From Diplosphaera chodatii (Eukaryota > Chlorophyta > Trebouxiophyceae > Prasiolales > Stichococcaceae), in contig JAALGY010000012.1 of NCBI GenBank assembly GCA_032358165.1, positions 3,038,001 to 3,102,000 of the forward strand: a stretch of DNA of 64,000 nt, written 5' to 3'. Under the pieces are notes generated by a model. It ran no database searches. It saw only the letters and a program-made list of their open reading frames with translations, and had not been told where the DNA came from. Position 1 is the first letter of the stretch. Each line of letters begins with the position of its first letter. Of the stretch, positions 5,144-25,901 are shown in pieces. A program made the translations under genes and the position numbers.

Positions 5144-6566
5144 TCAGTCCTCAGCCGGCGGCAGATCCATATCCGCAAGCGGGTCAAGATCCACGGGCAG
5201 CGGCGGCGCCCCGTAAATTGCTGGGTTACGAGCGCACGCTGTCTCTGCTGCCTTGGCCCACACCAGGGACGACTTGTAGCTGGACCTGCCCTCGCTGCGC
5301 GCCCAGCGCATGTGCATGTCCTGGATGTCGGCGAACATGCCCGGCCGCCGCGTTGTGTAGTGCACCAATGGCTGCCCTGTGTGGGCACCCATACGGTAGT
5401 ATGCGGCAATGTCAAAGGGTTCCACCAGCTCCCGGAAATTGTTGGCGCGGTGCAGCCACTTGGCGCCGCCGGTGCCGCCCTCCGCTGCCCGTTTGGCATG
5501 GTCGATCAGGTCGAGGGGCGCGTCCGGCGCCTTTCGGCCGAAGCCCGGCGGCAGGCTGCCGTCTGCCACTGCCGACAGGAAGCGCTCCCAGAACCCCTTC
5601 AGCGTGTTGCAGGCGGCCTGCACTTCGGTGACGGTCATTCCTGACGATGGCGCCTGGCCCTGCAGCACAGCCCAGAGGGCGCCACCGCTGTTCTGCCTTT
5701 CGCGCTTAAAGTCGCCCAGCCGTGTGGCCGCCTGCTGCGGGCCGACACTGCTACTGTATTCTGTCATAAACGCAGCCAGCTGCTGCCGCTGCTGCTTCGC
5801 TCGCCTCGCCTCTGCTTCCTGCTGCTCAGCACGTTGCTTTGCGGCGGCGGCCGCGGCGTCCTCCTCGTGCCGCTGCTGCTCCGCCCGCCTCGCCTCTGCT
5901 TCCTGCTGTTCCATGCGCTGCTTTGCGGCGGTGGCTGCGGCGGTGGCTGCGGCGTCCTCCTCGTGCTGCTGCTGCTTCGCCTGCCTCGCCTCTGCTTTCT
6001 GCTGCTTGAAGCTGTCCTTTTCGTGCTGCTGGGAATCCTGCCAGACCTTAAATGATGCAATGACAGTGCCGCTAATGGCAACAACAGCCCTGACTTTTTG
6101 GTAGCTGCTCCACCTGGAGTTATTCCCATTAGCAGCTGCCTGCACGAGGATACGGATTTGCTTCAATCTGTCTGATATACAGTGCCACTTGTTGGTCAGG
6201 AAAGCGGTAGCAGGTGACAGCAAGATTGTGCGAACGTGTGCTTCATATGCAGATGCTGATTGCTATGTCATGCGGCGCACCGTGTCAGCGGCAGGCTGCC
6301 CTTGACCAGATGCACCGCCACTACTGGCGGTATTGCTGTTCGTTGTCTGGTCTGGGCTGATAGACTGAGCCTGTGATGCAGGTCCAGCTGTGTTTGAAGG
6401 GGGCGGCTGCGCCGGCTGCGCCGCTGCGCATATGGGTTGAAGACACGCCTCATCCGATGCCAACAACTCATCACCATCGAGGATCACATGCTCAGCTTGT
6501 ATCTGGCAGCGTTCAAGACGGTCGATAGGCAAGCACACAGGAAGGCCTAATGCGCCGAGACGTACC
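5144..6566 (-). CDS. EP-domain-like protein with coiled coil (EDS1/PAD4 EP-like)
   Basis: The main exon is open from 6262 down to the stop at 5144. It encodes a short hydrophobic stretch (VRAVVAISGTVIASF), an about 110-residue Gln/Glu/Ala/Arg coiled coil, and a C-terminal globular part with GFWERFLSAVADGSLP, ELVEPFDIAAYYRMG, VHYTTRRPGMF, IQDM and SSLVWAKAAE. From memory this order (FW..., LVEPxDIAxxYR, HYxxxRPxxF, Q, SxxWA) is that of the EP domain of EDS1, PAD4 and SAG101. No lipase-like domain is seen in front of it. The main exon has no suitable ATG, so an upstream exon is needed. An open stretch 6566-6266 (PVCLPIDRLERCQIQAEH...), preceded by an acceptor-like CCCAG, is in the same frame but separated by TAG at 6265-6263, and is a candidate first or second exon. 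The plus-strand gene at 24951 is a paralogue. EP assignment is good; the 5' structure is uncertain. Confidence 0.65.
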
Positions 6567-9062
6567 TGGGGTAGCAGTTGTCGCTGCCCGCACAGCCATC
6601 ATATCTTGCAGACCGGCGCGGCCAGACTGTGCTGTGGACCTCCACACTCTGACCTGGCTACGACAACATGCTACCGCGGCCTGCTGCAACAGGGCTGCAA
6701 GGGATAATCCAGCCATGACCTCAGTTGCTGCCAGCAAAGCTGGCCTTCTACATGTGCGTCACAGTCTCAGAGCGCATGTACACTGGCAATTGGCGTCCTG
6801 GCCAAGGCACCACAGTTGTTCTGTCGACATTACTATCTGGACTGCATGGTGCATGACCATGCAGGACGCTAGTCGTGTTGTAAACAGCAATGCTCATGAT
6901 TCCACTAAACATTTCAGTATGACAGCCTTGCACGTCTAAGCGGAGTATGAGGGCTTGCTGAGAACATAACAATACATGATGGCGGCGCGTGACGGCTTAA
7001 CCGCATTACCATTTAAGCGCCTCAGTAATCAATATTGCATGCACATGGCAAATCCGCACCGCAGCTGTGACGGTAACAAGACCTCTCCTGGCAGCTGTTG
7101 CGGCGTTCACAGTACTGAGCGACATGACGGTAGGCAACATCCGGCGCTGGCAGCAGCAGTCGGACAGAACAGGGCCGCGCCGGAAGCAGGCTTTCCTCAG
7201 AGGTCACAGCACCAGCGAATGTGGCCTGCCGTGCGTGCAGGTGGGTTCAGACTGGACACTGTCCGTACTCCAAACACGCTACACAGCCTGGTGCTGTTCG
7301 CATTGCAAACCATGTGGCTGAATGGGAATACCTTCCGCGCCGATCTGCCCGTGCAGGTGGCAGCGCACACACTCTGAGCCAGGCAGCCTGACGCGCTGCT
7401 TCACATGCGAGACAACAGTCCGGGTCACATTGACCAGTGCCGCCAGACCAGCTGTCGGGGCAGCACCGCATTGCCGTGATGTATGCCAGCCCGGGATTTG
7501 GCAATCATAGGCGTCTGCACTGCGGCTGCTGGTGACTATCTGCTCCAGACGGTGCATGCTTTTGCCACGTGTTTCCCCTTTGCACAGCATACTGTGGTCG
7601 TTTGCTCAGCTGATGCCCGTCACCACCTCGTGCTGGCTGTTGAGCAGCGCCATGTTCGCAGATGCTCTACACAGTTACCTTCAACTCCCTTGTGCCTGTG
7701 CAGTAGTGCTGCGCTGTTGCCAGGGTTCTGCAGCGTGCGCTGCAGCAGCTGCAACACTTTTCAGGAAGTAAGCGGCGGGGGTCTGCAGCACAATGTTTCC
7801 AGTGAGCAACAGGTAGCGCTGCCAGGCTGGCGCTGCACTGGAACATTCGTGAGTCTGCGCTGCAGCAGGTACTGCAGCGCATGCCAAAGAATGCCCAAAT
7901 AATTTGACAGGCCTCGCTGTCTTGTGTCTGCGCAGCATGCTGGTATTTGTCATGCTGCAGCGTGGGGCTCAGCACACCCACACCATGCAACTGCAGGCGC
8001 ACAGGCTTTGGATAAGTGTGCGAAGCACATGGCAGTTGGCCTCATCAGCAGGCTGCTATGCAGCTGCCAGCTGCCAGCACAACATGGGAGCAGCACGTGT
8101 AGCCAGCTGCGGTGAGATTCCGCTCAGGGGTGCAGTGGCAAGCTTGCAGATGCTCCAGACGAACTGCGAACAGCTCTCTGGCTCCTAGCGAGGGCGCAAG
8201 CGCAGTGACAGCTGACGAGTGCATTGCTTGCGGTTGGTTGCATGGCCTGACGGCTGCTGCCAAATCTCGCACCATCTGAGAGACACAGAAGATGCTGCTG
8301 GTGCTACTGTGTGAGGGCGATCTTCCCAGCGAAAGCGTTTTCTTGTGCATCCAGGTCCTAAGTGTGATATTGGTGGGATTGTTCAACGCAATGGTGACAG
8401 GCAGCGAAAGAGCGGTTGCACCCTATATTTGCAGCAGATTAGAGACAGCGGCCAGCAGCATGCCTGCCCAGTTCGCATTGGCAGGTGCCTTGACAGCAAC
8501 GTTGCCGCGCCAGGCTGCACCAGATGCAACTAGGCGTCAATGCACGCCGATAGCAGCTTCCGTCAGTGACACAATGGTATGCAGGCGGCAGCGCAGCACC
8601 TCAGTGACAGAAGGTGTACCCAACGCTACACGCTCTGATGCTGCACACATGATTCGCCGACAGTGCCATGGTTCAACGGCTCATGTCGTGGCAGGAGTGG
8701 CCCATACCTTTGCCATCGTGTTGTGCAGAACGTCAAGCGCGCCAGACAGCGCCTGCTTCATCACCAGCGCACCATCATGACGCTCAGCGCTGGCGCAGCT
8801 GTGTCGGGGTGCGGCAGCAGTCGCAGCGGCGGCAGCATGTCAGGAGCTGAAGTGGCAGCCAGCAGCAGCTGCGGCGCTGGCGCAGGAGCAGCTGCCGAGA
8901 GGTGCGGCAACTGCCCTGCATGCAACTGCACATATGCACCTCATTGCACACACACTGTAGAGCTTGGGGGAACCCGCCGCAGGCTGGATGCACCTTAGAC
9001 GACGGACACTGTTAGATCAAGCCCTTGCATGTGGTTTGACGGTCCGCTGGTCTGTCGCCCAG
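6567..9062. other. No supported gene; ancient duplicate segment
   Basis: No frame here resembles a known family. Around 6690-6745 the sequence is clearly similar to 29755-29815 (shared pattern: gctgcaaggga-atcc--ccatgacctc, then matching positions to gctggc-tt), so both regions descend from one ancestral segment. A 162-codon ATG frame at 8292-8780 has a hydrophobic start but no family signal. A Ser/Ala/Gly-rich frame at 8790-8998 could be a transit-peptide exon of the following fragment. Confidence 0.4.
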
Positions 9063-9568
9063 GCTACCAGGACCTGTCGTCTCGCCTGGTGAAAGCGCTG
9101 CGGGAGGCGATCGAGACGGACGTGGGGGACGCCTCAGAGCGTGAGGTACGGGCCTCCTGAGAAAGTCTTCAACGTCACTCATGCCATCATGACATCGATA
9201 TTTCAGCGCAGTCGCCAGCATTTCCAGCGCAATTGGTGGGAAAGGCAGCGGGGAGCTTGCTGCATAGAGGCACGTGTTGGGTGGCCATCTTTGTCAGATC
9301 TGGCAGGAGGCGGGATCATTGATTGCAAACTCGAATCCATTTTGTCCACACGCTGCTCTGCACGTGGAGGCGGCAGGCAGTACATCCTTGTTTGAGCGCT
9401 TGGCTGATTGGCTGCCAGTCAGCAGCAGTCGTGCACAGCGACTCAGTTCCGCCGCCCTGCAGGTGCGGCGGAGGGCGGACAGCGCCAAGGGGCTGGTGCG
9501 GGAGTGGATTGCCAACTGGCGGGACAGCCCCCTGGTCACCTCCAGCGACTCGCACCGCCAGCTGACAG
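9063..9568 (+). CDS. Two exons of a Psb27-like protein (fragment)
   Basis: Exon 9063-9145 (acceptor cgcccag, donor GAG|gtacgg) reads YQDLSSRLVKALREAIETD. Exon 9463-9568 (acceptor ccctgcag) continues in phase 0 as VRRRADSAKGLVREWIANWR followed by DSPLV...SHRQLTG, ending at a possible GC donor. The helical pattern (Y..LV..LREAI, then an Ala/Lys helix, V-E-WR-x-P-V, S-x-R-L) recalls Psb27, the lumenal photosystem II repair factor. I could not find the expected final exon (ALxxLxxFY...), nor a convincing transit peptide, so it may be a broken copy. It is unrelated to the surrounding receptor genes. The family assignment is tentative. Confidence 0.3.
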
Positions 9569-10623
9569 GCAGGTTGACGCTGGACGACTCCCGCGTTTAC
9601 ATGCATGCTGCAATGGACGCTGGCATAGCAGCAGGTGCCAGCCTGTTCAAGGGATTTCACTTCCTGCAGCATATGAGTTTCTCTGTGTCATCAGGTACTG
9701 CAGCGTGCCAGGAGTAGCCTTGCAGCGTATCCAGCCACAGTACTGATGACCGAGGGTGCATCGTCCTGGTGCTGCTGCGGCCAGGACAACAGCCTGCAGC
9801 AGCAGAGCCTAACCATGCTGAAGGTGGGTTTGAATGAGTGGCAGGACGGGTGTTAGCGGGAAGAACGTGTTTTATGCTGTCATGATGTGGTGACCACCCA
9901 GGCAACTCTTGTGTGCAGACTGGTGACATGACTTGCGGCTCACCTCAACATAGGCAATGACCAGCGTGCACGGCAGCGAGGTGCACCATACTAGAGAGCA
10001 GCCGCGCATGTCGCGGAAGCGAGGCAGTTGATGAGGGTGCGGAGATGTTATCATCCGTGCTATGGGCAGAGGCCGCGTACACCCTTTGTTCAACCATCCA
10101 GCAGGTCTAGCTCGCCGGCGCTACTGGCAGACCTGGCTTTGCCGGCGATGCGGATCCGCCTGAAGGTGGCTCCTGAGGAATGGAACAGAGGATGCATACC
10201 AGCATGCATCATATGAAGGCTGAGGCCCACAATTGGTTTCGTGGGCCGCAGGCTTCACGAAAGGTTGCTCATTGTGACACAGCATACCGGTACTGCTATG
10301 GTGTAGGGTCTGTACACAGCTGGTATAGGTAGGAGCTGTGTGTCCCGTGTCCCGTGTCACTCGATCACTTCCGTCACTCGTGCATACCTACCGCACACCA
10401 GATGATGTCGTATGGTAGTGAAGTTTGCACATGTGTCATGCAACCCCCAAGGATCAAGCCATGAACGTTGATGATCACCTCAAACCCTGCTGACGTCAAC
10501 TTTGCGACTTTCAAGCAATGGGCACTGATCAGTAGTCCATGCTACAAGCACTCCTGGCCTCAATCGGCTGGGCATGTCCACCCCCTTCGCTGGGGTCTAC
10601 ACTTTCACTTTCACTTTCAATGC
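9569..10623. other. No supported gene
   Basis: Downstream of the Psb27-like fragment and of module B. Three CTTTCA hexamers at 10602-10619 abut the premature stop of module B. Nothing else is recognised. Confidence 0.5.
10602..10619. repeat. CTTTCA hexamer repeat at TPR breakpoint
   Basis: Three near-perfect CTTTCA units lie immediately downstream (minus-strand sense) of the module B stop codon, where homology with the TPR exons of modules C, D and F ends. Confidence 0.6.
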
Positions 10624-13453
10624 TCAGGCCCCAACACGACGCTGCTGCACCTGCATAGCCTGCTGCAGGTGCAGGGCTACTGCAGGCTCCCCGAACATGT
10701 ACAGCGTGCCCACAAGGGTGTTCAGGCTGTTGAGGGTGTCCTGCTCGATAGCCGATGCGCAAAGCGGCAGTTGACCCAGCTGCGCCGCCAGAGCCCTGAT
10801 GTTGGGCAGCTCCCCCGTCAGCAAATGCGTCGCTTGCTCGACCTCGGCTGAGCTGCCAACGCCAGGTCGCAATGGAGCCAGACGGTCGCCGGATGCCAGT
10901 ACACACCGCACAAATGCTTTGAGCGCGGGCAACTGCTCTGACGCCGGCTGCGCATGCCGTGCATGCTCTGCAATGTCCCACACCAGCGGGTGCAGGGTAC
11001 AGCGGGCGTCCGCTGGCATTGTGGCAGATGTGTCCGTCAGCAAACATGCATCTGCCAGATCCTGCAGCACTGTCGCTGCCGCTGCAGCGTCCAACTGCAG
11101 CACTGTCCTGGCTGCCTCCCGGCTGAAACTGCCCCTGTAGGCGGCGTGCAATGAATGCTCAGTGCGTGATAATCAACGTGGCGGCAGTGTCATGACGGCA
11201 GAGGCATGATGAACTGTGTCAGGCATGGGGACAAGCCCTTGAGTGCTGCGTAATCTAAATGTATGCAGATTGTTCCGGCCCACCTGAACAATGCAAGTGA
11301 GGACAGCGCCTGCAACTCCTCCGGCAGCAGGTATCCGTGAATCCAGGCCTGTGCGCTTGCGATTTGTAGCTCCTCCCGTGGCCCCCCTCGCCGGGTGTCC
11401 TGCAGCACGCTTAATGGGCTGCTTGCCCGAGCCGCCTGTAGCACAGCCTATGGCAATGGCCACGATGGATGTCAGGTAGTTGCTTCCCTTTCAGCTTATC
11501 ATTCCTACCGAAGGCAACCGCGTGCAGGGAATTCAGCAGCTGCCACCTCACTGCCGTCCCTTCCAGCCCCACCTTGAGGTTGCAGCGACCGGATCCGATC
11601 ATTGCGCCCAGCACCCTCAGCAGCAGCGCATTACAGCCGCACAGCCGCACGACTTCGTCTGCAACCTCCGGCTGCAGCACGCCTGGCTGAGTGGCATCGT
11701 GCCGCCGCAGCAGACTGACAGCACTGTCTGTATCAAGGGGCGGTAGCCGAAGCACATGCACCGGTGGTACCGTTGGCAGATGTCTACGTGATATGATGAC
11801 CAGGCTGACCATGGCGCAGGTGTGCAGCTCCCCCACCAGCTGCAGCAGCGCCTGCACACATGTTGAAAGGTAGTCTCAGTGCTGCAGCGGCGGGTCTATC
11901 TTGTGCACAGCTTCAGTGTGAAATCAGACATACCAGCAACGAGAGCAAATCGTGTGTTCCGCACGTGCGCGCAGAATGCCACAAAATGCACCAGACTAGC
12001 ACGTTGGTCGTGACGATCAGCATCACAAACAGGTGAGTTACCCACCGTAGCACTTCCTCTCCGAGCTGCATATTCGGCATGCTCTAGCACGATCAGCAAT
12101 GGTCGAGACCTCTGGAGCCACGCCAGCAGCTGCTCCCAGCTCCCATCAGTGGCAAGCCGCCAAGCTCCCTAGCAACGAAGGGGTTTGTGAGATCGTTTGA
12201 CGGCGAGGTTTTCAGCCCATGACGGATGTGGAACCCCACTTGCAGCTGGATTCAGCCGTCAATCACCTTCATGGTGCTGCATGTGGCTGACAGCTCGGTC
12301 GCAATGTGCTTAGACAGAGCTGTTTTATCGCCTGCAGTTGGATGTGACATGCCAGGTGCTCATCAGGTATGTACCGTTAGGCATCAATGGCTCTTATGTG
12401 CTGCAAATGCATGGCTCAATGGATGCGCAGCACTCTACCTGAAGATGTGACAGCAGACAGGTCCACCACAAAGACACCGCCAGGCAGTGCTTGGTCATCT
12501 GTCATACTATGCGCCGCCTCCGCAACCAGAGCGCTCTTGCCCTCGCCAGGCCCACCCACGACGACTAGCAGCCGCTCACGCTGCAGTGTGTCCCTGACAT
12601 CCGCCAGCATTGCAGCCCGGCCCAGCAGTGGCGGGGGTCGCGGCAGCTGGTTGCGTGCAAACTCGCCGTAGCCTGGCGGGAGCTGTCCGGCCGCAATGCG
12701 CATCTCCAGTATACATTCCACAGTGCGACGTACGCTCTCACCACCGTAGTCGAAACCCTGGCAGGCAAAGCAATAGCCAACATCAGCAAGCTCATGACAT
12801 GTCTCCGCAATAAGAGTTTGCATGGTATTGCAGGTGATACACATGCACAACCAAGTGCGTGCCTGCTCTGCCCGCAGTGCTGTGACGCAGAGCAGCTTCT
12901 CCATGTCAGCAGCGTACTCCGGCAGCACGTGCTGGCTGCACTCCTCGTAGGCAACGCCGTGCAGCACGATGCACAGCTGCTGGCTGCTGCCGGCCTGCCG
13001 CTGCTGCAGGATCTGACGCACTTGCTCCATGGAATACTTGTTGCGCATGAACTCCCTTGACATCACCACCACCACTGTGAAGAGGTATCATGGACAAGAA
13101 AACCGTCAATGTTTGCCTCGCTGTAGCACAACCAGTGCACATCTCTGCACCACAATACACACAAGCCAGGGTTGCATCACATGCACAGCCTGGTGTCAGA
13201 TGCACCCTATATGTAAATTGTGTTTGCCAACAAGCGCAGGCTACAGAGCTGAGAGTCTGACGCTCTCACCCACTGCAGCAGTGCTGAGCTCCTGTTGGAT
13301 GACGGGCAACGCATCGACATCGGGCCGCAGGCTCCATTCGGCCACAAACACGTGGAGAGCATGCACATCGCACAGCAGCATACGGAGCAAGTCCACAAAA
13401 CCCCGCTTCTGCTCGCCAGCGTGCGCTATGAAAACCTGCAGAACTTCTGCCAT
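10624..13453 (-). CDS. Module B: TIR-NB-ARC protein lacking TPRs
   Basis: Eight exons: TIR-a 13453-13270, TIR-b 13074-12863 (GC donor CAG|GCACGC), P-loop 12757-12439, mini-exon 12331-12267, kinase-2 12168-12046, RNBS-B/GLPL 11851-11573, winged-helix-a 11435-11284, winged-helix-b 11134-10624. Lengths sum to 615 codons. Start: ATG at 13453 directly before EVLQVFIAHAG; a TGA lies two codons upstream in frame. Motifs: GGPGEGKSA (Walker A), LLIVLEHAEY, IISRR, CNALLLRVLG, LHPLVWDIAE. The helical segment after the MHD-like motif stops at TGA 10626-10624, exactly where paralogues begin their TPRs and beside a CTTTCA microsatellite, so the TPR array was lost. In the TIR catalytic position B reads YSMEQV where paralogues have M-x-E-V, so it may be enzymatically weak or inactive. 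The preceding C exon ends in a donor, but its phase does not match this TIR exon, so B is modelled as separate. Confidence 0.75.
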
Positions 13454-13534
13454 CGATCAGTGGCCGCTATCTCAACGAGGAGATGGCAACGGTGTTCACC
13501 AGGGACTCTTTTGGCAAGGTTGCATATACCAATT

Positions 13535-16500
13535 TCATGCACCTGCCATTCCGGCCAGATTGTACAGCACCTGATTGTTGTTGTCCTGGGCATGTGCCTG
13601 AGCGTCACGTCCATCATCAGCGTCTTTCGTACTCGCTCTCAGCGCTTCTTCGTACTGCTGCGCTGCCTGCGGCCGCTGCGCGAGCGCGGTAAACTGTTGC
13701 CTCCCTTGCAGGGCCTGCTGGTGCAGCGTCGCCGCCTCAGCGTGCCGCCCCAGCTGCCCCAGCTCGACCGCCGCCTGCTGCATGCTGCATAGCGTTGCCG
13801 AGTGCTGTGGTCCCAGCACGCGCCGCCTGGCCTCCAGCACATCCCGGTGCTGCTGCAGCGCCTCAGCGTGCCGCCCCAGCTGCCCCAGCTGCATCGCCGC
13901 CTGCTGCATGCTGCACAGCGTTGCTGGGTGCTGTGGTCCGAGCACGCGCCGCCTGGCCTCCAGCACATCCCGGTGCTGCTGCAGCGCCGCATCATGCTGG
14001 CCCAGCTTCCCCGTTTGCACAGCCAGCTGGTGCATGGCTGACAGGGTGGCCGGGTGCTCTGGGCCCAGCATACTGCACAGGGGGTCTTGCATTGTCTGCA
14101 GCTGCTCCGCAGCCGCTGCATGCTGGCCCAGCTCGCCCAATGCGCAAGCAATGTCAAGCATGAGCTCCAGCACGCCTTGATGCAGAGGTGCTGAATCCTG
14201 CTGCAACGCATCTTGCACCTGCCGCAGCATTGTCTCCGCGCTTGTGCGGTCACCCAGCTGCAGCACCGCCAGTGCCAGCCGGATGGCTTGACGCAGCACT
14301 GTGTGGTGCGCCCGCCCCTTGTTACGCTCCATGCTCTGCAAAGCGCGGCGGTGGAAGACGACCGCCTCGCTGTGGCGCCCCAGCTGCCCTAGGTCCCTTG
14401 CCACCATGCTGAGGGTGGCCACTGTGTCAGGGTGGTCTGGGCCCAGCACTGCCTGCCGCGCTGCCAGCACACGGCGATGGATGTCCAGCACATCTGCGCT
14501 GCGGTCCAGCTCGCCGTAGCATGCGGCCAGGCTGTCCAAGCTCGTCAGGGTGTCACGGTGCAGTGAGCTCAGCACACGCTCACGCAAGCCCAACGTCAGC
14601 TGGTGCTGCTCTACTGCTTCTGCAAAGCACCCTTCCCGAGCCAGCTGATCTGCAATGGCGTGCCTGACACTCAGCGTGGCAGCGTGCTCGCGCCCATGGT
14701 CTGCCTCGGCAAGGTCCAACAGGCGGCGGAGCACCTGCCTGGCCTCAGTGACCCTGCCTAGGTTGCCCAGCTGGCTTGCGAGCAGGTCGGCAGTGACCAG
14801 CGTGTCGGGATGCGCTGCTCCCTGTGTCCGCAGAAGCGCTGCCATCACTGGCTGCAACAGTTCTACACTGGTTGTGAGCTGCCCAACTCCCCACAATGTG
14901 GCTGCCAAGCTGTCGAGCCTGCTGAGAGTGTCCTCTGCCTCCAGTGCCGCGCTCTTGGATAGCGGTGGCTGACCAAGCTGTGCTGCCAGAGCTCTGATGC
15001 TGAGGGACTCGTCTGCCAGCAGCTGCGCCGCTTCCACAACCTCTGCTGGGCTTCCAATGCCAGCCCGCATGCCGATGACACGATCGCCGCAGCCCAGCAT
15101 CCAGTGCAGAAACACCTCCAGTGCAGCCAGCTGCTGCAGCTGAGGCTGCATCTGCCGCTGCTGCTCCGCAACTTCCCACACCAAAGGGTGCATGGTGAAG
15201 CGCGATCCTTGCAAGCTGGTAGTGGGCGCGGATGCAAGCAGGCATACATCTGCCAGATCTTGCAGCAATGTTGCTGGCGCTGTGGTAGCTTGCTGCAACA
15301 TTGTCAAGGCTGCCTCCTTGCTGAAGGCGCCCCTGTTGGCACATCAGTCGACCAGGGTCACGCCCGCATGGCTTCTGCAACTGCATAGATTGGGGTATCT
15401 TGATCATCAACAGAGATCCAAAAGGCACCCATCAAAAGGTGTGGTGGGCAGCATGATCATGGTGCACCTTGTGTTTGCATGTCTGGATGAACTGCTCACC
15501 TGAACAATGCAAGCGAGGACAGTGCCTGCATTTGATCTGGCCGTAATTTGTCACCAATCCAGGTCAGCACCATGTGGATGTGCAGGCTGCTGTGTGAGTC
15601 GCCCTGATGGCTATCCTGCAGCATGCCAAGTGGGCCGCCAGCCTGGGCTGCCTCCACTACAGCCTGTAACGATGGATGAGACGAATGGCAAATAGCAACA
15701 AGAAATGTATATGGAAATGGCACTGGCATCAGAATATAATAGCCGGTGCCACTGACAGTTCGTCAACTCAGAGCTCACCTCTAGATCGCAGCAACCAGAC
15801 CCGACCATTCCGCCCAGCACTTTGAGTAGCAGCGCATTGCAGCTGCACAGCCGCACAACTTCCTCTGCGCCCTCTGGATGCGGAGCATCCATCGCTGTGC
15901 CACATTGCCACCGCAGCAAGCTGACAGCGCTGTCTGCACTGAGCCGTGGCAGATGCAGACATGGCCATTCAGATCTCAGATGAATCCTTGACGTGATGAT
16001 TATGCTGACCATGGGACAGGTGTGCAGCTCGTCCACTGATCGCAGCAGCTCCTGCGTGCAATAGTCAGAAGCTGAGCTCCATGCTACTGGTTGCAGAGGC
16101 ATGCAGAACATGGCACAGTTTTCTGGCGCGCGGCAAAAACAACACAGCGGGTTGATGAGGCAAGTACTGTACCATTTCGCATGTTCGATGTGCAACACGA
16201 TAACGGCACCGTCTCTACCAAGCTTCAGCTACATATGCTCACCGTGGCACGAGGCTGATCGCTCATTGCGTGCTCAGCGCTTTCCAACACAATCAGTAAT
16301 GGGGTTGTGGTGTTGCGCAGCCGTAGCAGCAAGCGGCCCCAGTCTCCTTGAGTGGCAAGCCGCCAAGCTCCCTGACATGGGTGATTTGTCGCATGAAGCT
16401 TTCGTGATGCCATATCCCGAAACACATGCGTACAGTGAAGAGTTCACTGCGATTGCACTGTTGGCTGTCCCAGGAGCTCACTTACCTTCATCGTGCTGCA

Positions 16501-17726
16501 GGCAGCTGATAGCTGATCTGCAATATGCAGAGTCAGAGCCGCCTTGCCACCTGCGTTCAGTGTCATTGAGTGTCAAGCACCAATGGGCAGGCTCTGCTAG
16601 GCGTGACCGCATGTGTATCGTACATATGCATGCCCCCTCGTATGGAATGCAGCTGCCGCACACCTGGAATGGTAGCAAGATTAACAGCATAAGCGCCCCC
16701 GGGCAACAGGCCGGCACTGCTCAGGTGGTGCGCTGCCTCCGCCGCCAGTGCGCTCTTACCCTCGCCAGGGCCGCTCACAATGATCAGCCTCCGCTCACGC
16801 CGCAGGGCGTCCAATGCATCTGTCAACGCCATGTCCCGGCCCAGCAGCACTGGCGGCCGCAGCAGCTGCACAGCCTCGCCGTAACCAGCTGGCAGCTTCC
16901 TGGCCTTCATCAGCAGCTTGATGACAGCCTCAGCAGCGGGTAGCGCTTCCCCAAAGGCCTGTCGATTGTACGAGACGCAACCGTTGGCTGTCTAGAAGTA
17001 TGCAAAGCATGAAAGACATTGCTTCCCAGGAACGGGCCCTTCGGCGCAATATACCTTGCAATCAATTGTGATGCAAACGGCAGATGGGACTGGTTCATAA
17101 GTTGAAGAGTGTGCACCTGATTCCCCGGTAGTAGGGTGATGCCCAGCAGCTCCTCCATGTCAGCGGCATACGCTGGCAGCACGTGCTGGCTGCTCTCCTC
17201 ATAGGTAACGCCGTGCAGCAGGATGCACAGCTGCTGGCTGCTGCCGGCCTGCTGCTGCTGCAAGATCTGGCGCACCTCCTCCATGGAATGCGTCCTGCTG
17301 ACAAACGTGCGCGAGAGCACCACGACCACTGCAGTGCACAAGCAAAGCAGACTGACGCATATTGAACTCTGGTGTGTTGCAAGCCTCGAGCTGAAAACGC
17401 AGGCGTATTCGTTGTGCAACAACCATCCAGATGTGGAGCAGCCTGCAGCAGGCACACCACCTGCATACAATGTGCCCCATGCTACAGCTCATGCAACAAC
17501 ACAGATGAGCAATGCTGCGCTTACCGACCGCCGCTGTGCGCAGTTCCTGGTAGGTGACATGCAGCGCATGATCATCGAGCTGCAGGCCCCACTCGCCCAC
17601 AAACACATCCAGCTTGTGAAGGTCTCGCAGCAGGTATTGCAGCGAGTCTACAATGCCAGGCTTCTCCTCGCCAGCATGCGAAATAAAGACGTGCGGACCT
17701 TCGACATCCACTCCAGGCATTTCTGC
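13535..17726 (-). CDS. Module C: TIR-NB-ARC-TPR, likely second half of a D-C fusion
   Basis: Exons: TIR-a 17726-17525, TIR-b 17328-17117, P-loop 16991-16664, mini-exon 16550-16486, kinase-2 16371-16243, RNBS-B/GLPL 16051-15779, winged-helix-a 15663-15500, winged-helix-b plus TPR 15332 to the stop at 13535. Up to the donor-like CAG|GTGCTG at 13571 they sum to 1,045 codons. Motifs: VFISHAGEEK, HSMEEV (catalytic Glu present), SGPGEGKSA (Walker A), LLIVLESAEH (kinase-2 position without Asp), IITSR, CNALLLKVLG, FTMHPLVWEVAE (MHD-like), then kinesin-light-chain-type 42-residue TPRs (RRVLGPQHPATL). TIR-a has no Met start; its acceptor at 17727 is in phase 0 with the donor ending the module D TPR exon 107 nt upstream, so C is most simply the C-terminal half of one protein. 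If the last intron is not spliced the protein ends VLYNLAGMAGA. Predicted NAD-cleaving, NTP-switched receptor; ligand unknown. Confidence 0.8.
13870..14060 (-). repeat. Near-identical TPR block shared with module D
   Basis: This about 190-nt stretch of the module C TPR exon (encoding HRDVLEARRRVLGPQHPATL and flanks) matches 18530-18721 in module D with a single difference seen by eye, while flanking parts of the two exons are much more diverged. This suggests recent gene conversion or unequal exchange. Confidence 0.75.
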
Positions 17727-17833
17727 CTGCCAACACCGCAATTTCTGAGTCGTGGTACGATGGCCAGACGGCACGACTGGCAGTGGTGCATGCACGTCGT
17801 GCACTGGCCACTGCTATAGCATGCAGGTAGCAC
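17727..17833 (-). other. 107-nt intron joining module D TPRs to module C TIR
   Basis: The donor after EDTSQ (CAG|GTGCTA, exon end 17834) and the acceptor GGCAG before AEMPG (exon start 17726) are both phase 0. Introns of 107-119 nt occupy the same position before the TIR-a exons of A (3625-3741), C, D (22402-22520) and E (33272-33390). Confidence 0.6.
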
Positions 17834-20800
17834 CTGGCTGGTGTCCTCGGGAACATGTGGTGAGATGGACGCTGGTATTGGTACCGCATCTGGCAGCTGG
17901 CTGCTGATGTGTTCCTCTGCTGTACCTGTGCTGGTCGGTGCCGTATGCTGTGCTCCAGCCGCTAGCGTGTCCACTGAATGCTGGCCAGCCGCTGGGAGCC
18001 CTCCTGCAACGTCAGTGTCCGTTCTGTCGCTGCTGTGCTGTTGCTGCTCTGCGCTGCTGACGCCCTTAGATGCCGTCTGACCACCTTGCAAACACGTTAT
18101 CATGGCCTGCAGCAGCTGTGCCGCCTCTGTGTGCCTCCCCCGCTTTGTATATTGGCCTGCCAAAACGGCCATGCTGCTCAACACATTCAGGTGCTCCAGC
18201 TCCGGCTGTGACTGCACGAGGTGCTGCAACTGCTGCTGCAGCTGCTCTGCATCCTCCATCTGCTGTGCCGCGAGGGCCACCTGAGTTGTTAGACCATGGA
18301 CCCCACTGAGGCTTGCATGCGGCTGGCTGGCAGATCCTTGAAACCGCTGCGAACAGGCCCGCAGAGCGGCTTGGTACTGCTGCCCTGCCCTGGGCTGCTG
18401 CACAAGCAGCATAAGCTGCGCCGCCAAACCGTTCATGCTGATGAGTATGCAAGGGTGCTGTGGTCCCAGCACGCCCTGCTGCAGATCGTCCGGCTGCAGG
18501 ATCTGCTGGTGCAGCGCCGCCGCCTCAGCATGCCGCCCCAGCTGCCCCAGCTGCATCGCCGCCTGCTGCATGCTGCACAGCGTTGCTGGGTGCTGTGGTC
18601 CGAGCACGCGCCGCCTGGCCTCCAGCACATCCCGGTGCTGCTGCAGCGCCGCATCATGCTGGCCCAGCTTCCCCGTTTGCACAGCCAGGTGGTGCATGGC
18701 TGACAGGGTGGCCGGGTGCTCTGAGCCCAGCACATTGTGCAAGCTAAGGTGAAGCTGGTGCAGCTGCGCTGCCGCCTCTTCATGCTGGCCCAGCTCGCCC
18801 AGTGCGCAGGCCAAACTGTGCATTGAAAAGAGCGTCACCAGGTCCTTTGAGCCCGTGAACAGCTTCTGGACACGCTTCAGCACTGTCTGCGCCTCTGTTT
18901 CGCTGCCTTGCTGCAGCAGCGCCAGCGCGAGCCTGGTGGTGGCTCTCAGCGTCATGTGGTGCGCCCCTCCCCTTGCAAGCTGCATGCCCTGCAGTACGCT
19001 GCGGTGGTGCGCAACCGCTTCGCCATGCTGGCCCAGCTGGCTCAGCTCCTCTGCCACCATGCTGAGGCTGTCCAGTGTGATGGGATGGTCAGCTCCCAGC
19101 ACAGCCCGCCGCGCCTCCAGCGCGCGGCGGTGAACACTTGGGACTTCAGCGCTGCGGCGCAGCTCGCCATAGTAAAAGGCTGTGCTGTGCAACCCAGGGT
19201 GCTCCTGAAGCTGAAGCTGACCGACTTGCAGGCAGAAATTTGCTGCAGTCCTTGGCGGATCTGACAGCAGCTGCAGCGGCTCGGACTGCTGCACCTCTGA
19301 CGTGAGCCAATGCTGCTCTGCAGCCTCAAAGAAGCAGCTTTGCTGGCCCAGCTGTGGCTGCACTGCAAAGTCCTTCATAGTGATGAGCGTGACTGGATGC
19401 TCACACCCGAGTGCAGCCTCTGCCAGGCTCAGCATGCGCCAGGTCCACTGCCCAGATACGGCATACTGATTGAGCATGCACAGCTGCTTCGCCAGGAGGT
19501 TGGCACTGAACAATGTGTCAGCATGTGCTGACCCCTGCTTCCGCTGCCGTGCTGCAACCACGGGCTGCAGCAGCTCTGCCGCGGCCGCTGGCTGCCCAAG
19601 TGTCCAGAGGGTGATGGCAAAATCGTCGAGTCGGCTAAGGGTGTCCTCTGCAGTGAGCGCTGCACTGTCAGAAAGCGGCGGCTGACGTAGCTGTGCCGCC
19701 AAAGCACCAATGTTTGGCAGCTCATCTGCCAGCAGCTGCGCTGCTTTCAAAGCATCTGGGCTTCCAAAACTGGGCCGCATACCAGCCAGACTGTTGCCGC
19801 AGGCCAGCATCAGGGGAAGGAACGCCTCCAGCGCAGCCAGCTGCTGCTGCTCCGGCTGTTCTTGCCGCTTGCAGTTGGCAAAGTCCCGCACCAGTGGGTG
19901 CAGGGAGTAGCGAGGCGCATGGCTGCTGACAGCGGGGGCACGCGCCAGCATGCAAGCATCTTCCAGGTTCTTCAGCATTGACGCCTTTGTAGCGCCTGGC
20001 GGCAGCAACGCCATAGCTGCCGGCTTGTTGAAGCTGCCCCTGCAGTCAAGACGGTTGTGCTGGATGTGGGCTGTTGTGTCAGCTGGCGCTGTGAATAATT
20101 AGTGTGTCACACTGGAGGGCTATGGCTGGGTTTGCCACCCTCTGCGTGCCAAAGAACCTGCTCTACGTGCCAAAGAACCTGCAGGTGCGCCATGCGCCAT
20201 CCTCAATGCCACCTGCCCACCTGAACAACGCCAGCGCAGACAGCGCCTGCAGCTGATCCGCCCGCAGCTGTTTCCCAAACCAGGCCAGCACGCGGCTGAT
20301 GTGCTCATTGTCGCGCGGACCGCCCACATCGGTATCCTGCAGCACGCTGAGCGGGCCGCCAGCTTGGCACTCCTCCAGCACATCCTATTGGCAGCAAAGG
20401 CAGAGGAGGTTAGTGACGTCTGGTGCACTGGCAGGTCACTACCAGTGCACTGCACGTGAGCAGAACACAGCCTTTTGTAGCTTCATACATCTCACCTCCA
20501 GCTCGCAGCGTTCGTTAGCCAGCATTGCGCCCAACACCTTGAGCAGCAGCGCGTTGCATGCGCACATCTGCACGAGCCTGTCAGCACCCTCTGGTTCCAG
20601 ATTGCCTGACTGTGTGCCGCAGTAGAGCCGCAACAAATCGACAGCGCTGTCCGCCTCGAGGGCCCGTAGACGGATGCTGGGCCGCTCCGAGTTAGGCTTG
20701 GTGCGCGAGGTGACGATCAAGCTGACCCTGGGGCAGGCATGCAGCTGGCCTACCAGCTGAAGCAGAGCCTGCAGGCATGTTCGAGAGGATAGACACTGCG

Positions 20801-22565
20801 CTGATGGGAGGACAGCACTACATGCTGGCTTCATGTGACTCTGCAATGTCGGTCTCGAATTGCTCAGAAGCGGGCTCACATACTTGCGTCAAGCATCTGG
20901 ATATGACAGGCATGCGTCATGCACAACGTGTAGTGCAAACTGGGGTTGGAAGTGCCCACCTTGTGGCTGTCTTTGTTGTGCAGCAGCATGTGTTCCGCAT
21001 TTTCCAGCACGATCAGCAGCGGTTTTGCTGACCGCTGAAGCCAATGTAGCAGTTGCTCCCAGTTGTCGTTGCTCTTTAACCCCCAAGCTCCCTGCAGAAG
21101 CAGACATGCTGTGTGCTTTCCGCAACCCACTTGAATGGTGTGAAGAACTCTGACCTGGCATTGACAGAAGCGGCTACCCCTGTTTATGGCTCACCTTCAT
21201 CGTGCGGCAAGCGGCCGCCAACTGTACAGCAATATGCTTGGCGAGTGCCGCCTGACCGCCTGCAGTCCGACACCGGTGCATGTCTGGGAACAGGCACAAC
21301 TGCAGGATGTATGGATATTATGTGCGCAGTCTTAGGCATGGTCCACGGCAGGTGCCAAAGCTCACCCTCGCATGCAGCAGCAGTCAGATCCACTGCAAAG
21401 GCTCCCCCGGGCAGCTGCTTAGTGCTCAAATGATACGCTGCCTCCGCCGCCAGTGCACTTTTGCCCTCGCCAGGCCCGCCCACAATGAACAGCTGCCGCT
21501 CACGCCGCAACGTTGTGAGCGCCTCCGACAGCACTGTATCCCGGCCCAGCATCGAAGCAGGCCGTGGCAGCTGATTGCAAGTGCCGTCGCCATAGCCAGC
21601 CGGGAGCTGTCCTGCCTTGATCAGCATCTTGACCACGGCCTCCACGGCACGCCGCAGCTCTTCGCCATGGTAGTCACGGGCCTGGCGAGTGCAGCAAGAT
21701 GGTATGACCAATGGACTGTCAGATGCAGGACTGATTCCATGCAGCACCTGCACACATGCAGCATTTGCTGGCGGTAGGTGTGCTCTGCAGCGCAGAGTGT
21801 TGGCGGCTGCCTAAGTCGAGTATCCAGAGTACGCGCCTGGTCAGGGCGCAGCAGGGCAATGCCCAGCAGCTCGTCCATGTCGGCAGCGTAGCCATGCCGC
21901 ACGCCTTCGCTGCACTGCTCGTAGGTGATGCCATGCAGCACGATGCACACCTGCTGGTCGCTGTTGGCCCTGCGCTGCGCCAGGATCTGGCGTACCTCAT
22001 TCATGGTGTGCTTCTTGGCCTTGAACTCGGGCGACAGCACCACCACCACTGCGGAGGTCACAGGAGTGTGACACAGCTCAGCATTGACTATCAAGGAATC
22101 TGTTGGGCGCTGTTCGGTGCATTGTTAACAGGGAAAGCACCTGCCCAGTGTATCAAGCAAGGTATATTGCAAAAGTGTGGGAGCTGCTACGACCCTCACC
22201 AACGGCAGCAGTGCGCAGGGCCTGCTCGATTTCACGCAGCGAGTCAGTGCCAGGCTTCGAGCTCCACTCGTCAACGTACACGTCCAGCGCGTGCACATCT
22301 TTCAGCAGCACACGCAGCACATCCACAAACCCCTTCTTCTGCTCGCCGGCATGCGCAATGAACACCTGGGGACCTGTAATGTCCCCTGCAGGCTCCGCTG
22401 CCTGCTGTGGCAGCACAGGCTGCAAGTTAACACACATTGACCGCACTTCTGCCTGATTGGCACGCAATTGAAAGCACTCGAACGCTCACAGCAAGGGATA
22501 TTGTTCCACTGTAGTAGCACCTGGCTCGTGCATGGTGCTGCAGCTGCTGAAGCTGATGCTGACAT
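17834..22565 (-). CDS. Module D: TIR-NB-ARC-TPR, first half of a D-C fusion
   Basis: Exons: linker 22565-22521, TIR-a 22401-22200, TIR-b 22048-21837 (GC donor CAG|GCGCGT), P-loop 21681-21366, mini-exon 21259-21195, kinase-2 21091-20960, RNBS-B/GLPL 20768-20496, winged-helix-a 20384-20221, winged-helix-b plus TPR 20039-17834. The sum is exactly 1,205 codons. Residues 16-153 are TIR (VFIAHAGEQKKGF; HTMNEV with catalytic Glu). Walker A is GGPGEGKSA, the kinase-2 position LLIVLENAEH, RNBS-B IVTSR, the GLPL-like motif CNALLLKVLG, and YSLHPLVRDFA is MHD-like. About 700 residues of kinesin-light-chain-type TPRs follow. Start: Met of MSASASAAAAPCTSQ is the nearest ATG, but this exon resembles the tails of other TPR exons, so it may be a relic of a lost upstream module. 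If the TPR exon is not spliced it runs on to a stop at 17648. With the phase-0 intron into module C the product is 2,250 codons. Confidence 0.8.
18530..18721 (-). repeat. Near-identical TPR block shared with module C
   Basis: Partner of the block at 13870-14060; one mismatch noticed over about 190 nt. Confidence 0.75.
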
Positions 22566-23400
22566 TGGTGCTGCATTGCAGCCGAGGTCAGGGCGGTGCC
22601 TATCCAGCCGTCTTGCATTGGGCGCCACCAGCACCCCTGCCGTCTCTGGCACTGATGCTGAGGTCTTGTCGCAGTTGGCTGCTGCGAGCATGCCGGCAGG
22701 CCCTCAGACCACGCTGCCACGGCTGCGAGTGCTACTGCCGATGCGCAGCTGTGGGTTGGTATCCTGAAGAAGGCATCAGCACCAGCGTCAGGAGCCAAAC
22801 CCTTCCAGTGCATGCTCGGGATCAGATTGGCATCGCTTGCGGAATCCACTGCCATTGTCGTGTGCTGTGAAGGGTTGCAGTTACTGCGCGCCTGTGGGAA
22901 GAGCACGCCCCACTCGGTTTGCAGGCGGCCTCGCCGCACTATTCTTAGCGTCGCAGCACGCCGCTCAACACCTGTAACAGCAGCGATCTAAGCCATCGAA
23001 ATTCGGCAAACACCAGCAGTGGGTTACGCAGAGGCACCGGCAGTAGGAGTGTCCCTTTTCAGGGACCAGCTCGGCGCCGCATGCTGAAGAGACATGGTCG
23101 TTCCAAGCCAGCGTCTAGCGTTCAGATCTGTTACTTATGGCTCAGCACGGCTTCGTGGACATGAGTGCGCGCTGCATTGCACCCACGATGTGGCCATTGA
23201 GGTGTCGACACCATATCTGGTGTCGACATCCATGCCGGAGGGCAGCGCTTGTGTCCAAGGGACGGCCTTCAAGGAAGAGACGGCGATGTGCTTACCGTCT
23301 CTCAGGTGGAGATGCGCCCGTTGAGGCTGCAGAACTCGCTCCACCTGGCCCTGTCCCACTGGAGGCAACTTACGCAGATGAGCTGGCTGCAGCCCACATG
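22566..23400. other. No supported gene
   Basis: Upstream of module D. No TPR, TIR or EP signal. A small palindrome GGTGTCGACACC lies near 23200, with GGTGTCGACATC just after it. Confidence 0.4.
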
Positions 23401-24288
23401 CTACATTGAACGGTTGAAGTCCCGTGTGCAACAACGGCAGGTTTGCCAAAATGCATGCTTGGGCACACGGACGATAACATCTGCATCGTGTCGTCCTTCA
23501 CGTACCGCGGTTGGCCTGCACGGGCTGCACCTCCTGCTGATCAAACATCTTGTGATAGGAGCCGCTCCTAGAAGGAGCGGTTGCAAATCGTGTGGTAATC
23601 CTGAGAGAGGCGAGAGTCGAGAGGGCGAAGTGGCTCTTGGCTGTCCTGAGAAATGAACGACAACATTGGGAGCCAGCCATTCGCATAGAATGCGCACTCT
23701 GCGTCGCACCTTGAACCTGTGAATGCAGCGCAGCCATTCCAGCAGCAGCAGATCTGGGGTTGTACTGGCGTCGCACTGGGGTGTCAACAAGTACATGAAC
23801 CCCAGCCTCTGCCCGTTTGCCAGGTGCGTCGACGGGCCTGCGCACATGCTGGCTATGCGGTTTAGATCCTCCACAGCTGTATTGGTAAGCGGAGTTGTCG
23901 GCATAAGGCGACCCATGCGCCATCTGCTTGCACATGCGGCGGATGTTGCCTTGGTTAGTAGTGATCCGTGCAGAGTTTCGATCCCTGATCGCAGGCGAGC
24001 AAAAGCTACAGCAAGCAGGCCTTCGACGGTGCCGGCCTCAATCCCGACCTCCGTTCTGCGCTACAGTGCCTCGTTTGCACGTGGTGGCCCTCGATACAGG
24101 AGGAAATCTTCGAGATCAGCAGGTGAGCGCACATACATGGGAGCAGTCAGAAGCACGATGCTATAGAGCTGCAACGCAGCCTGCAGCCGCGTGATGGGGG
24201 CACATGTTGGAATTTGGTTGGTGGCGCACCTGGCTGCATGCTTGCCGGGCTGGCACAGGCGCAAGCCAGTGTGCGGCGAGCTATGCAT
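23401..24288 (-). pseudogene. Unassigned reading frame with one internal stop
   Basis: A single minus-strand frame runs about 296 codons from ATG 24288 to a stop at 23401, broken only by TAG at 24063-24061. The composition is protein-like and not low-complexity (for example RSPADLEDFLLYRGPPRANE, ANGQRLGFMYLLTPQCD, LLLEWLRCIHRFKVRRRVRI). An acceptor-like CTGCAG before AALQLYSIVLL at about 24180 suggests an exon boundary. I do not recognise the family. It could be a broken host gene, a mobile-element fragment, or two exons with an intron spanning the TAG. A perfect 8-bp hairpin (CCGCTCCT-AGA-AGGAGCGG) lies inside it near 23570. Confidence 0.35.
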
Positions 24289-24950
24289 ATCTACGCTGCA
24301 TTAGGAGCGTGGTCTATGCCAGCGCACTGCTGCAGCTACGTCAGAATGCGCTAACGGAAGCAACCTCCTCCCATACCACAAACCTATCTGCTTGCAGCAG
24401 ATGGTGGGACATGGCAAGATGGCAGCCTTGCTGCCATTCATTTTCTTGAAAGGGCCCACCTGAACAGAAGAACGCTGTAGGCAGGCCGCCATCGCAGAGC
24501 CGACTGAGTGTGCTGCTGGCGGATGCATTATAGTCACGCAGGCCTGCGAATCCGTAGTGTCCACAAAGGCAAAGGCAATATAGACGCTGGATGCAGCGTC
24601 ACCGTGTTGGTCCGTCGTCCAGCGGTGGTCCTGATGTGCTGGGAGCGTGGCCATGCAGGCCGCGCGTGCATGGGGTGCTGGTGTCTGGGTACACGGCCTG
24701 ACTGCCATTCAGTACTCCGATAATTCCTGGCGCCGTTCAGCTCTGACTGTGTGGCGCAGGCGCTTCGTCCCTCACCCTGGCCCGGTGACCGTGCTGTGCA
24801 TTCAAAGCAGCGCCAGAGACGACACCGCTTGTGACATCAGGTCAGTTGCACATCATTCACACCATGCCTCATCCTCTGATCCCATAGCAGTGGCCATAAT
24901 GCATGTATCTGCACAGCAGCAACCAACATATCATGTTCCGTCGTGTCAGG
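24289..24950. other. No gene recognised
   Basis: Probable upstream region of the plus-strand EP-like gene; no motif I can support. Confidence 0.4.
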
Positions 24951-25901
24951 ATGGCAGTGGATGAAGGCGCGCTGGGCGTCGGCATCGCCGCCGCGGTGCT
25001 GGCGCTCCTGTCGCTGGTGCTGACGGTCGTCTGGCGTGAAAGTGCAAAGGTGAAGGCGCGCGCAGCACGTCTGGCGGACCTGAAGAAGCAGTATTCAGAG
25101 GCAGTACAGCCGGCAATGTCGTGGCTGGATGGACTCAAGCGCCAGCACCCAGGCGGAAGGCTCTGGGCAGCGCTGCAATTCGAGCCTTTGCTGCTACTGC
25201 CACAGCTGCCACTGCTGCCGATTCGGCCCAGTGCAGATGACTTGCAGCGGGAGTTGACAGCACGACAGCTGCTGGCATCCCACATGGAAGAGTTTCAGCG
25301 GGAGCAGCGCAGCCGCAACCAGGTCAAAGGTTTCTGGGAAGCACTTGTTAAGGATGTGGACGAAGGCAACTTGCCAGCAACATTTGTGTACGGTGGCAAA
25401 CACAAATTGCTTGGCAGCACCTTGCTGGGCCAATTGTTCCCTGGCTTGGTGCTGCACAGATTGCGCCGGCGGCAGCAGGCACAGATCACAGCCGCCGCAG
25501 CATTAGCAGCCTCTTCCGCACAGCAGCAGCCAGTAGCAACTAGCACATGGAAGGAGGAGATGCGACCCATTACCTTTGCAAATAAGAAGTGGCTGTTCAG
25601 GGCGAAAGGTTTCAGGGAATTAGTGGAGCCCTTCGACATCGCCAACTTCTACCGCATGGGCCTGAACAAAGGGGTGGGGGGCAACCGCAGCTACCACGAA
25701 GCAGGACGCTCAGGCTTGTACATTCGGCTGCAAGACATGGAAGTAGCAGCTTTGAAGGCGGCAGGCGGAGGGGTTTACCAGTCTTCACTGGTGTGGGCTG
25801 AGGCTGCGGCGGCAGCGGTGCAGGCTGATCCAGTGCACGATGGCCCACCTGCGTTGCAGGCAGACCTGGCACCACTGGCGCCAAGGCAGCAGCCCCCATA
25901 A
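24951..25901 (+). CDS. Membrane-anchored EP-domain-like protein
   Basis: Single-exon frame of 316 codons from ATG 24951 (MAVDEGALGVG); an earlier in-frame ATG at 24903 would add 16 residues. Residues about 6-28 (ALGVGIAAAVLALLSLVLTV) form a transmembrane segment followed by basic residues, i.e. a signal anchor. A helical region follows. The C-terminal half carries VKGFWEALVKDVDEGNLP, KWLFRAKGFRELVEPFDIAN, FYRMG, YHEAGRSGLY, LQDM and YQSSLVWAEAA, the same ordered motifs as the gene at 5144 and, from memory, as the EP domain of EDS1/PAD4/SAG101. There is no lipase-like domain, unlike seed-plant EDS1. TGTAA follows the stop by 25 nt. It lies between modules D and E/F but on the opposite strand. 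It is the only EP-like copy here that is complete with its own start. A role in TIR signalling is inference from domain and context. Confidence 0.75.
   Translation: MAVDEGALGVGIAAAVLALLSLVLTVVWRESAKVKARAARLADLKKQYSEAVQPAMSWLDGLKRQHPGGRLWAALQFEPLLLLPQLPLLPIRPSADDLQRELTARQLLASHMEEFQREQRSRNQVKGFWEALVKDVDEGNLPATFVYGGKHKLLGSTLLGQLFPGLVLHRLRRRQQAQITAAAALAASSAQQQPVATSTWKEEMRPITFANKKWLFRAKGFRELVEPFDIANFYRMGLNKGVGGNRSYHEAGRSGLYIRLQDMEVAALKAAGGGVYQSSLVWAEAAAAAVQADPVHDGPPALQADLAPLAPRQQPP

Follow-up and report, generated by a model that had tools for sequence, protein, structure and literature searches.

EP-domain genes related to EDS1, PAD4 and SAG101 lie beside TIR genes in the chlorophyte Diplosphaera chodatii

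A stretch of 64,000 nucleotides from the genome of the green alga Diplosphaera chodatii (contig JAALGY010000012.1, positions 3,038,001 to 3,102,000; called the window below, and its contig C10) carries two genes, EP1 and EP2, whose predicted products resemble the EP domain of EDS1, PAD4 and SAG101. EDS1 is an immune regulator that serves TIR-type immune genes in seed plants, and EP is its sensing domain. The features of the window are collected in Table 1. EP2 is a single open frame of 316 amino acids and lies where a first-pass annotation of this DNA had placed it. For EP1 the open frame was confirmed on the minus strand (372 amino acids from stop to stop); however, its first ATG is at residue 117, and the 5' end at position 6566 that had been proposed would therefore require a further exon upstream.

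The ordered motifs attributed to these proteins, FW..LP, ELVEPFDIAxxYRMG and SSLVWA, were found, and the likeness goes beyond chance. The Pfam profile EDS1_EP matched EP2 with E = 4e-11 (43.4 bits) and EP1 with E = 1.7e-7 (31.5 bits), both significant against a curated cut-off of 23.1 bits, and EP1 and EP2 share 46% identity across 104 columns. The EDS1_EP matches stop before position 141 of the 211-position profile and leave its C-terminal third unmatched. When the PDB was searched with EP2 as a single sequence, all 12 distinct sequences at E <= 1 were EDS1, PAD4 or SAG101 (best E = 0.0014). With a profile built from the ten algal copies described below there were 15 matches at E <= 10, of which the best 13 were again EDS1, PAD4 or SAG101 (E = 1.9e-11 to 3e-5), and the first match outside these proteins came at E = 0.036. 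In similar PDB searches a spliced EP copy from another contig matched Arabidopsis PAD4 with E = 1.8e-11, and a copy that appears to be fused to a TIR domain matched EDS1 with E = 2.6e-9 and PAD4 with E = 2.8e-9. Five of the ten algal copies were taken into an alignment with plant sequences; 11 columns are invariant across these five and the EDS1 and PAD4 segments from both Arabidopsis and rice, and identity to Arabidopsis EDS1 is 25-36%.

We also compared predicted structures, leaving four of 33 database matches (P0025, P0033, P0034 and P0035) out of the alignments behind the prediction. The best structural match of the EP2 model was to the EP domains of EDS1, PAD4 and SAG101, at modest Z, and a Foldseek search with the same model gave no significant match. 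The EP1 model is poor, so that the lack of EDS1-family chains among the 16 chains compared with it excludes nothing. That annotation would have given up the kinship if there were no EDS1_EP match and another fold, and with significant Pfam matches and agreement among the top PDB matches the kinship stands. We conclude that, at the level of sequence, it is established that this chlorophyte genome encodes an EP domain homologous to that of EDS1, PAD4 and SAG101. One further candidate likeness was set aside. About 40 residues (DI..YYR..LDR..GHY) resemble gp29.2 of phage SPO1 (PDB 9vel_r) with E = 5.7e-5 to 2.9e-4, and this head-decoration protein (FJ230960 98604-98858) gave a profile E of only 0.036, with phage records yielding nothing better than 0.06; we treat the likeness as chance or unexplained.

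Table 1. Predicted features of the window (positions count from its first nucleotide).
Feature	Position	Strand	Evidence and remarks
EP1, EP-domain protein	5144..6262	-	EDS1_EP match; EP core about residues 262-340; weak hydrophobic segment
TPR region, TIR-NB-TPR gene neighbouring the EP2 partner	13535..15343	-	TPR_12 E=7.2e-48
TPR region (816-aa open frame), EP2-partner gene	17648..20098	-	TPR_12 E=2.1e-36, 7 stretches
NB-ARC second part, EP2-partner gene	20439..20888	-	NB-ARC positions 130-213, E=0.0055, below cut-off
P-loop (STAND NTPase) exon, EP2-partner gene	21184..21810	-	nSTAND3 E=1.8e-4, below cut-off
Second TIR exon, EP2-partner gene	21621..22124	-	TIR_2 positions 52-93, E=0.017, below cut-off
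First TIR exon, TIR-NB-TPR gene head-to-head with EP2	22153..22485	-	TIR_2 28 bits, equal to cut-off of 28
EP2, single-exon EP-domain protein	24951..25901	+	N-terminal membrane helix (predicted); EP core residues 209-267
TIR of plus-strand unit upstream of tail 1	42816..43154	+	PF01582 28.3 bits, G000:C10:3080816-3081154
EP tail remnant 1 (C-terminal half of EP)	50882..51129	+	tblastn with EP1 E=3.6e-6
TIR of duplicated unit upstream of tail 2	55392..55673	+	PF01582 26.7 bits, G000:C10:3093392-3093673
EP tail remnant 2, duplicated downstream unit	63331..63564	+	tblastn with EP1 E=2.6e-7

The whole genome (85.6 Mb in 55 contigs) was then scanned with the EDS1_EP profile, which matched ten places, all ten above the Pfam cut-off; 14 control genomes gave no EDS1_EP match. 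Two places in the genome match RbcS, and one of these, over its full 140 residues, finds its closest PDB entry in 1gk8, from Chlamydomonas; taken together with GT-AG introns, this makes a chlorophyte the most probable host. An independent protein search of the genome returned the identical ten places, with the next match no better than E = 0.5. They are distributed over five contigs of 1.2-3.4 Mb each: two in the window, two on C1, one on C14, two on C24 and three on C51. Genome-wide, TIR_2 matched 26 places, TIR (PF01582) 30 and NB-ARC 25. For distance counts the two sets of TIR matches were merged into 32 places, and the TIR domain of the apparent fusion gene, which is in neither TIR list, had its distance added by hand. 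It can be seen that none of the ten EP places is farther than 20 kb from a TIR match, a zone that covers 0.87% of the genome; eight are within 5 kb (0.36%) and six within 3 kb (0.23%). The corresponding binomial values range from 3e-14 to 2.5e-21; these exaggerate the case because genes duplicate in clusters, and the five contigs are a fairer count. The nearest TIR match is head-to-head for eight of the ten EP places, with EP1 and the fusion copy in tandem arrangement; the EP copy at C51:127015 in fact diverges from the fusion gene, 1.2 kb off. In the five pairs measured, with positions placed by hand, 0.86-2.6 kb separate the EP start codon from the TIR. The location of EP genes among TIR genes is a stronger result than the first-pass annotation could have known, since it extends to every EP place in the genome and to a probable TIR-EP fusion.

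The nearest structure-solved relatives of the algal domain are seed-plant proteins, and it could be supposed that EP was acquired laterally from a land plant, or that plant DNA contaminates the assembly. We regard this as extremely unlikely, since ten copies on five contigs of this size adjoin TIR genes of the same genome, the five aligned copies are so distant from Arabidopsis EDS1, and there are 33 more relatives in a public protein collection, one of them 84% identical. The 33 were found with the algal profile (E = 4.3e-41 to 2.7e-4; 6813 candidates out of 5.8 billion proteins), 30 carry a precomputed PF18117 label and their contigs reach 219 kb. The same collection gave no matches to whole EP2 or to its EP region used as queries, probably owing to low complexity or few shared words. 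Searches with short patterns, which distant relatives can escape, confirmed none of 17 candidate stretches in viral contigs and none of 295 in prokaryote species genomes as EP relatives. We also noted an EP-like protein, P0025, that has no precomputed Pfam label and comes from ncbi, jgi, lgn and ena sources on nine contigs of up to 142 kb; these are possibly algal contigs within deposited metagenome-assembled genomes.

The genes that face the EP copies have the domains of immune receptors. Six head-to-head partners outside the window (on C1, C14, C24 and C51, the fusion apart) match TIR_2 and NB-ARC above cut-off, and in all six the TIR, P-loop and leucine-rich repeat (LRR) frames follow one another on one strand. 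The LRRs were recognised by motif, Pfam confirming them solely on one adjacent, unpaired frame. By these matches and motifs the six partners are of the TIR-NB-LRR type. The glutamate of the C-x-x-E-L motif, which we take to be catalytic, is kept in all 11 TIR frames inspected by eye, six of them EP-paired and five unpaired. The window partner of EP2 has tetratricopeptide repeats (TPRs) instead of LRRs. In this gene, which was scanned from 17.6 to 22.5 kb, TIR_2, STAND/NB-ARC and TPR_12 matches occur in order, in keeping with the TIR-NB-TPR surroundings described in the first-pass annotation; the matches are strong for the TPRs but weak for TIR and NB, where each is at or below its cut-off.

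On the minus strand of C51, TIR exons at about 125065 to 124055 are followed by EP exons at about 123905-123699 and 123563-123261 (positions by hand), and TIR and EP are joined in frame across a phase-0 GT-AG intron, as judged by eye with the exons checked. When read as one conceptual protein, with an X at a frameshift, this locus scored 27.2 bits for TIR (cut-off 21.3) and 50.2 bits for EDS1_EP, the highest EDS1_EP score among the Pfam-scanned copies; without TIR exon 1 the TIR score was 15.6 bits, below cut-off. The single frameshift is in this exon (C51:125065-124877, L011), and the gene may for this reason be a pseudogene, or the frameshift a strain polymorphism or an assembly error. The locus is a probable TIR-EP fusion, and its TIR and EP may alternatively be two separate genes.

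Two tail remnants of EP had been reported in the window and both were recovered. The first starts in frame at the end of a TPR-like open frame at 50474-50962 (by eye) and shifts to a different frame for its second half. The tails resemble pieces of EP that decayed or were shuffled, and they sit in window units that also bear TIR matches. A weak EP-tail-like stretch, SSVLWAEAAYTLC, at 9964-10158 on the plus strand (E = 0.12 to 1.1) is maybe a third remnant. Elsewhere in the window, two units about 12.5 kb apart (45342-46520 and 57910-58965) contain 126-bp repeats of 42 codons, TPR-like by their period, and are 92-97% identical in several 300-base stretches. TIR matches recur each 12-18 kb along the window contig up to C10:3151396, so that the array reaches past the window.

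Could EP and TIR stand together by chance, through tandem duplication within a single cluster of immune genes, with no functional link? The EP genes, on five contigs, are not independent of each other, the majority of TIR places lack an EP neighbour inside 5 kb, and EP and TIR distances are uncorrelated, which means that we saw no signal of co-divergence. However, the divergent order is seen on each of the five EP contigs, and partners of both the LRR and the TPR type take part in it, one copy is apparently fused to a TIR domain, and the tails sit in units with TIR matches. We consider an accident of this kind very unlikely.

A membrane helix is predicted at the N-terminus of seven of the eight EP copies measured. 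Over 19 residues, five spliced copies reach a hydropathy of 2.56-2.87 and EP2 one of 2.60; the copy at C24:693723 scores 2.35 and EP1 1.19. The membrane segment or coiled coil of the first-pass annotation thus corresponds to a strong segment in EP2, but in EP1 the segment is weak and there is instead a long, charged, coiled-coil-like stretch (by eye). Splicing was tried on six copies and gave five full models, each drawn from 4 to 24 GT-AG candidates. All five models place the first intron between two codons; for three of them the most upstream ATG was taken as the start, which may lie too far 5'. EP2 follows the same plan within one exon. The recurrence of the membrane exon and of the codon-boundary first intron in five of the six copies tried points to an EP-only architecture that is established. 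The copy C1_1 (L018, C1:1954301-1955203) has an open EP core and gave no splice model with an in-frame membrane exon.

In agreement with the first-pass annotation, a scan of EP1, EP2, three more genome copies and P0022 found no lipase-like domain, and of 47 Lipase_3 matches in the genome none is on an EP-bearing contig. By predicted sequence these proteins therefore fall outside the EDS1 family on its family-defining part, the lipase-like domain. It is conceivable that they are reduced descendants of a full EDS1-like ancestor, the lipase-like domain having been lost in chlorophytes, in which case they would be uninformative on EP before its fusion to that domain. The unmatched C-terminal third of the EDS1_EP profile and the EP tails or fragments in the window would fit such a history, but no lipase-EP neighbour was found in the genome, the EP-only plan is shared among copies as described above, and EDS1-family proteins are reported absent outside seed plants in the available parts of two surveys (PMC10834447, PMC9654257). 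We judge reduction to be rather unlikely.

The first-pass annotation had pointed to the EP-pocket residues, and we mapped these from PMC6377607 onto the five aligned algal copies. According to the portion of that paper available, residues K440/441, K478 and R493 of the Arabidopsis EDS1 cavity are required for immunity through TIR-type nucleotide-binding leucine-rich repeat receptors (TIR-NLRs), and PAD4 R420, the counterpart of EDS1 R493, is dispensable for it. All five copies have equivalents of EDS1 R475 and R490, within a LVEPFDIANYYR...NRP block that is strongly conserved in all five, and four of them have K or R at the position of PAD4 K380; but no copy has K441 or K478, and equivalents of K440 and R493 occur in the fusion copy alone. 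It follows that any nucleotide pocket would differ chemically from that of EDS1, and with R493 confined to the fusion copy nucleotide binding by the algal EP remains putative.

Such absences would suit a different role, in which EP is homologous but a mere helical scaffold or docking module that holds TIR receptors at membranes or inhibits them, sensing having arisen later in the EDS1 lineage. The membrane helix and the head-to-head pairing, a layout known from sensor-executor NLR pairs, are equally what a scaffold might show, and so are the missing K441 and K478 equivalents and, in the stand-alone copies aligned, the missing R493. It is harder to reconcile with the conserved block around the R475 and R490 equivalents and with the basic residue at the PAD4 K380 position, and we think it unlikely, slightly more so than reduction.

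We favour instead a two-gene immune module made up of an algal TIR receptor and an EP protein that would act as a membrane-anchored receiver of TIR-made nucleotides, and we give this a probability of about 0.65; a working TIR-EP module ranks as the best explanation at about two to one. The TIR receptor would detect infection, and its TIR domain would make a nucleotide derived from nicotinamide adenine dinucleotide. The EP protein, anchored in the membrane by its N-terminal helix, would bind this nucleotide and would execute or relay the response directly at the membrane, with neither a lipase-like domain nor an RPW8 helper. Direct action at the membrane is proposed because RPW8 (PF05659) had no genome match above cut-off (best E = 0.68) in a six-frame search, which ignores introns and which a split RPW8 gene could escape. 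In bacterial Thoeris-like systems, too, a TIR enzyme gene adjoins the gene for a sensor that carries a membrane segment, a likeness in gene-pair logic.

Several results weigh against this interpretation. The converse of the closeness of EP to TIR is weaker, as an EP place is found within 5 kb of only nine of the 32 TIR places and within 20 kb of 16. The four stand-alone copies aligned have none of the K440, K441, K478 and R493 equivalents. The gap in Z between the EDS1, PAD4 and SAG101 EP domains and the next structures matched by the EP2 model is small. The newness of an algal EP near TIR genes is weakened by one sentence of a 2019 paper, according to which three 'EDS1 genes' lie in the NLR cluster of Chromochloris zofingiensis (PMC7145615). 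Neither a domain architecture nor any mention of an EP domain, a lipase or a head-to-head order appears in the main text of that paper.

When compared with EDS1, PAD4 and SAG101, the algal genes share the homologous EP domain, the W...EPxDIA.YY(R)...G....RP block and the association with TIR-NLR genes. They differ in having no N-terminal lipase-like domain, mostly an N-terminal membrane helix, and an EP profile matched in part; moreover the cavity lysines are mostly missing, R493 is kept in the fusion copy only and no RPW8 was found above cut-off. The Chromochloris genes resemble ours, on a comparison of text alone, in that genes named 'EDS1' stand beside TIR-NB-LRR genes in a chlorophyte (PMC7145615). 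As far as the consulted parts of PMC7145615 and PMC7282519 describe them, chlorophyte TIR-NB-LRR receptors are like the partners outside the window, with TIR and NB-ARC matches and LRR motifs, whereas here there is divergent pairing with EP genes and the EP2 partner has TPRs, not LRRs.

These observations bear on the published view of the EDS1 family as confined to seed plants (PMC9806590, PMC10834447, PMC9654257, PMC9153377; each taken from the sections available). In those sections the EP domain is said to define the EDS1 family uniquely (PMC9806590); EP proteins are confined to seed plants in a search of 350 genomes that required lipase plus EP (PMC10834447); EDS1-family proteins are missing outside seed plants (PMC10834447, PMC9654257); and non-seed plants have TIRs and no EDS1 family (PMC9153377). 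As far as these sections show, the surveys worked from predicted proteins (PMC9806590) or combined top BLAST hits with domain architecture (PMC9654257), and with such procedures, or with a requirement for lipase plus EP, intron-split EP-only genes could escape. EP-only or TIR-EP proteins of algae were not described in the titles and abstract openings searched, a scope that leaves aside subscription papers and preprints, and the accessible parts of PMC12856790, PMC9647133 and PMC10952240 contain nothing on algal EP genes.

With an EP-only protein paired with TIR genes, and once apparently fused to one, in a chlorophyte, the origin of the pathway becomes testable. In the ancestor shared by all green plants, TIR and EP could already have been paired in immune signalling. 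EP would then have been a stand-alone, membrane-anchored receiver of TIR-made nucleotides, its gene head-to-head with that of its TIR receptor or at times fused to it, and RPW8 helpers and the lipase-like domain would have joined only later, toward seed plants; we put this forward tentatively, at somewhat less than an even chance. The TIR-EP immune partnership may thus be much older than the surveys say. If this is true, neither lipase-like partners nor helper NLRs would be needed for EP alone to receive TIR signals, and the alga would offer a far simpler biochemical system.

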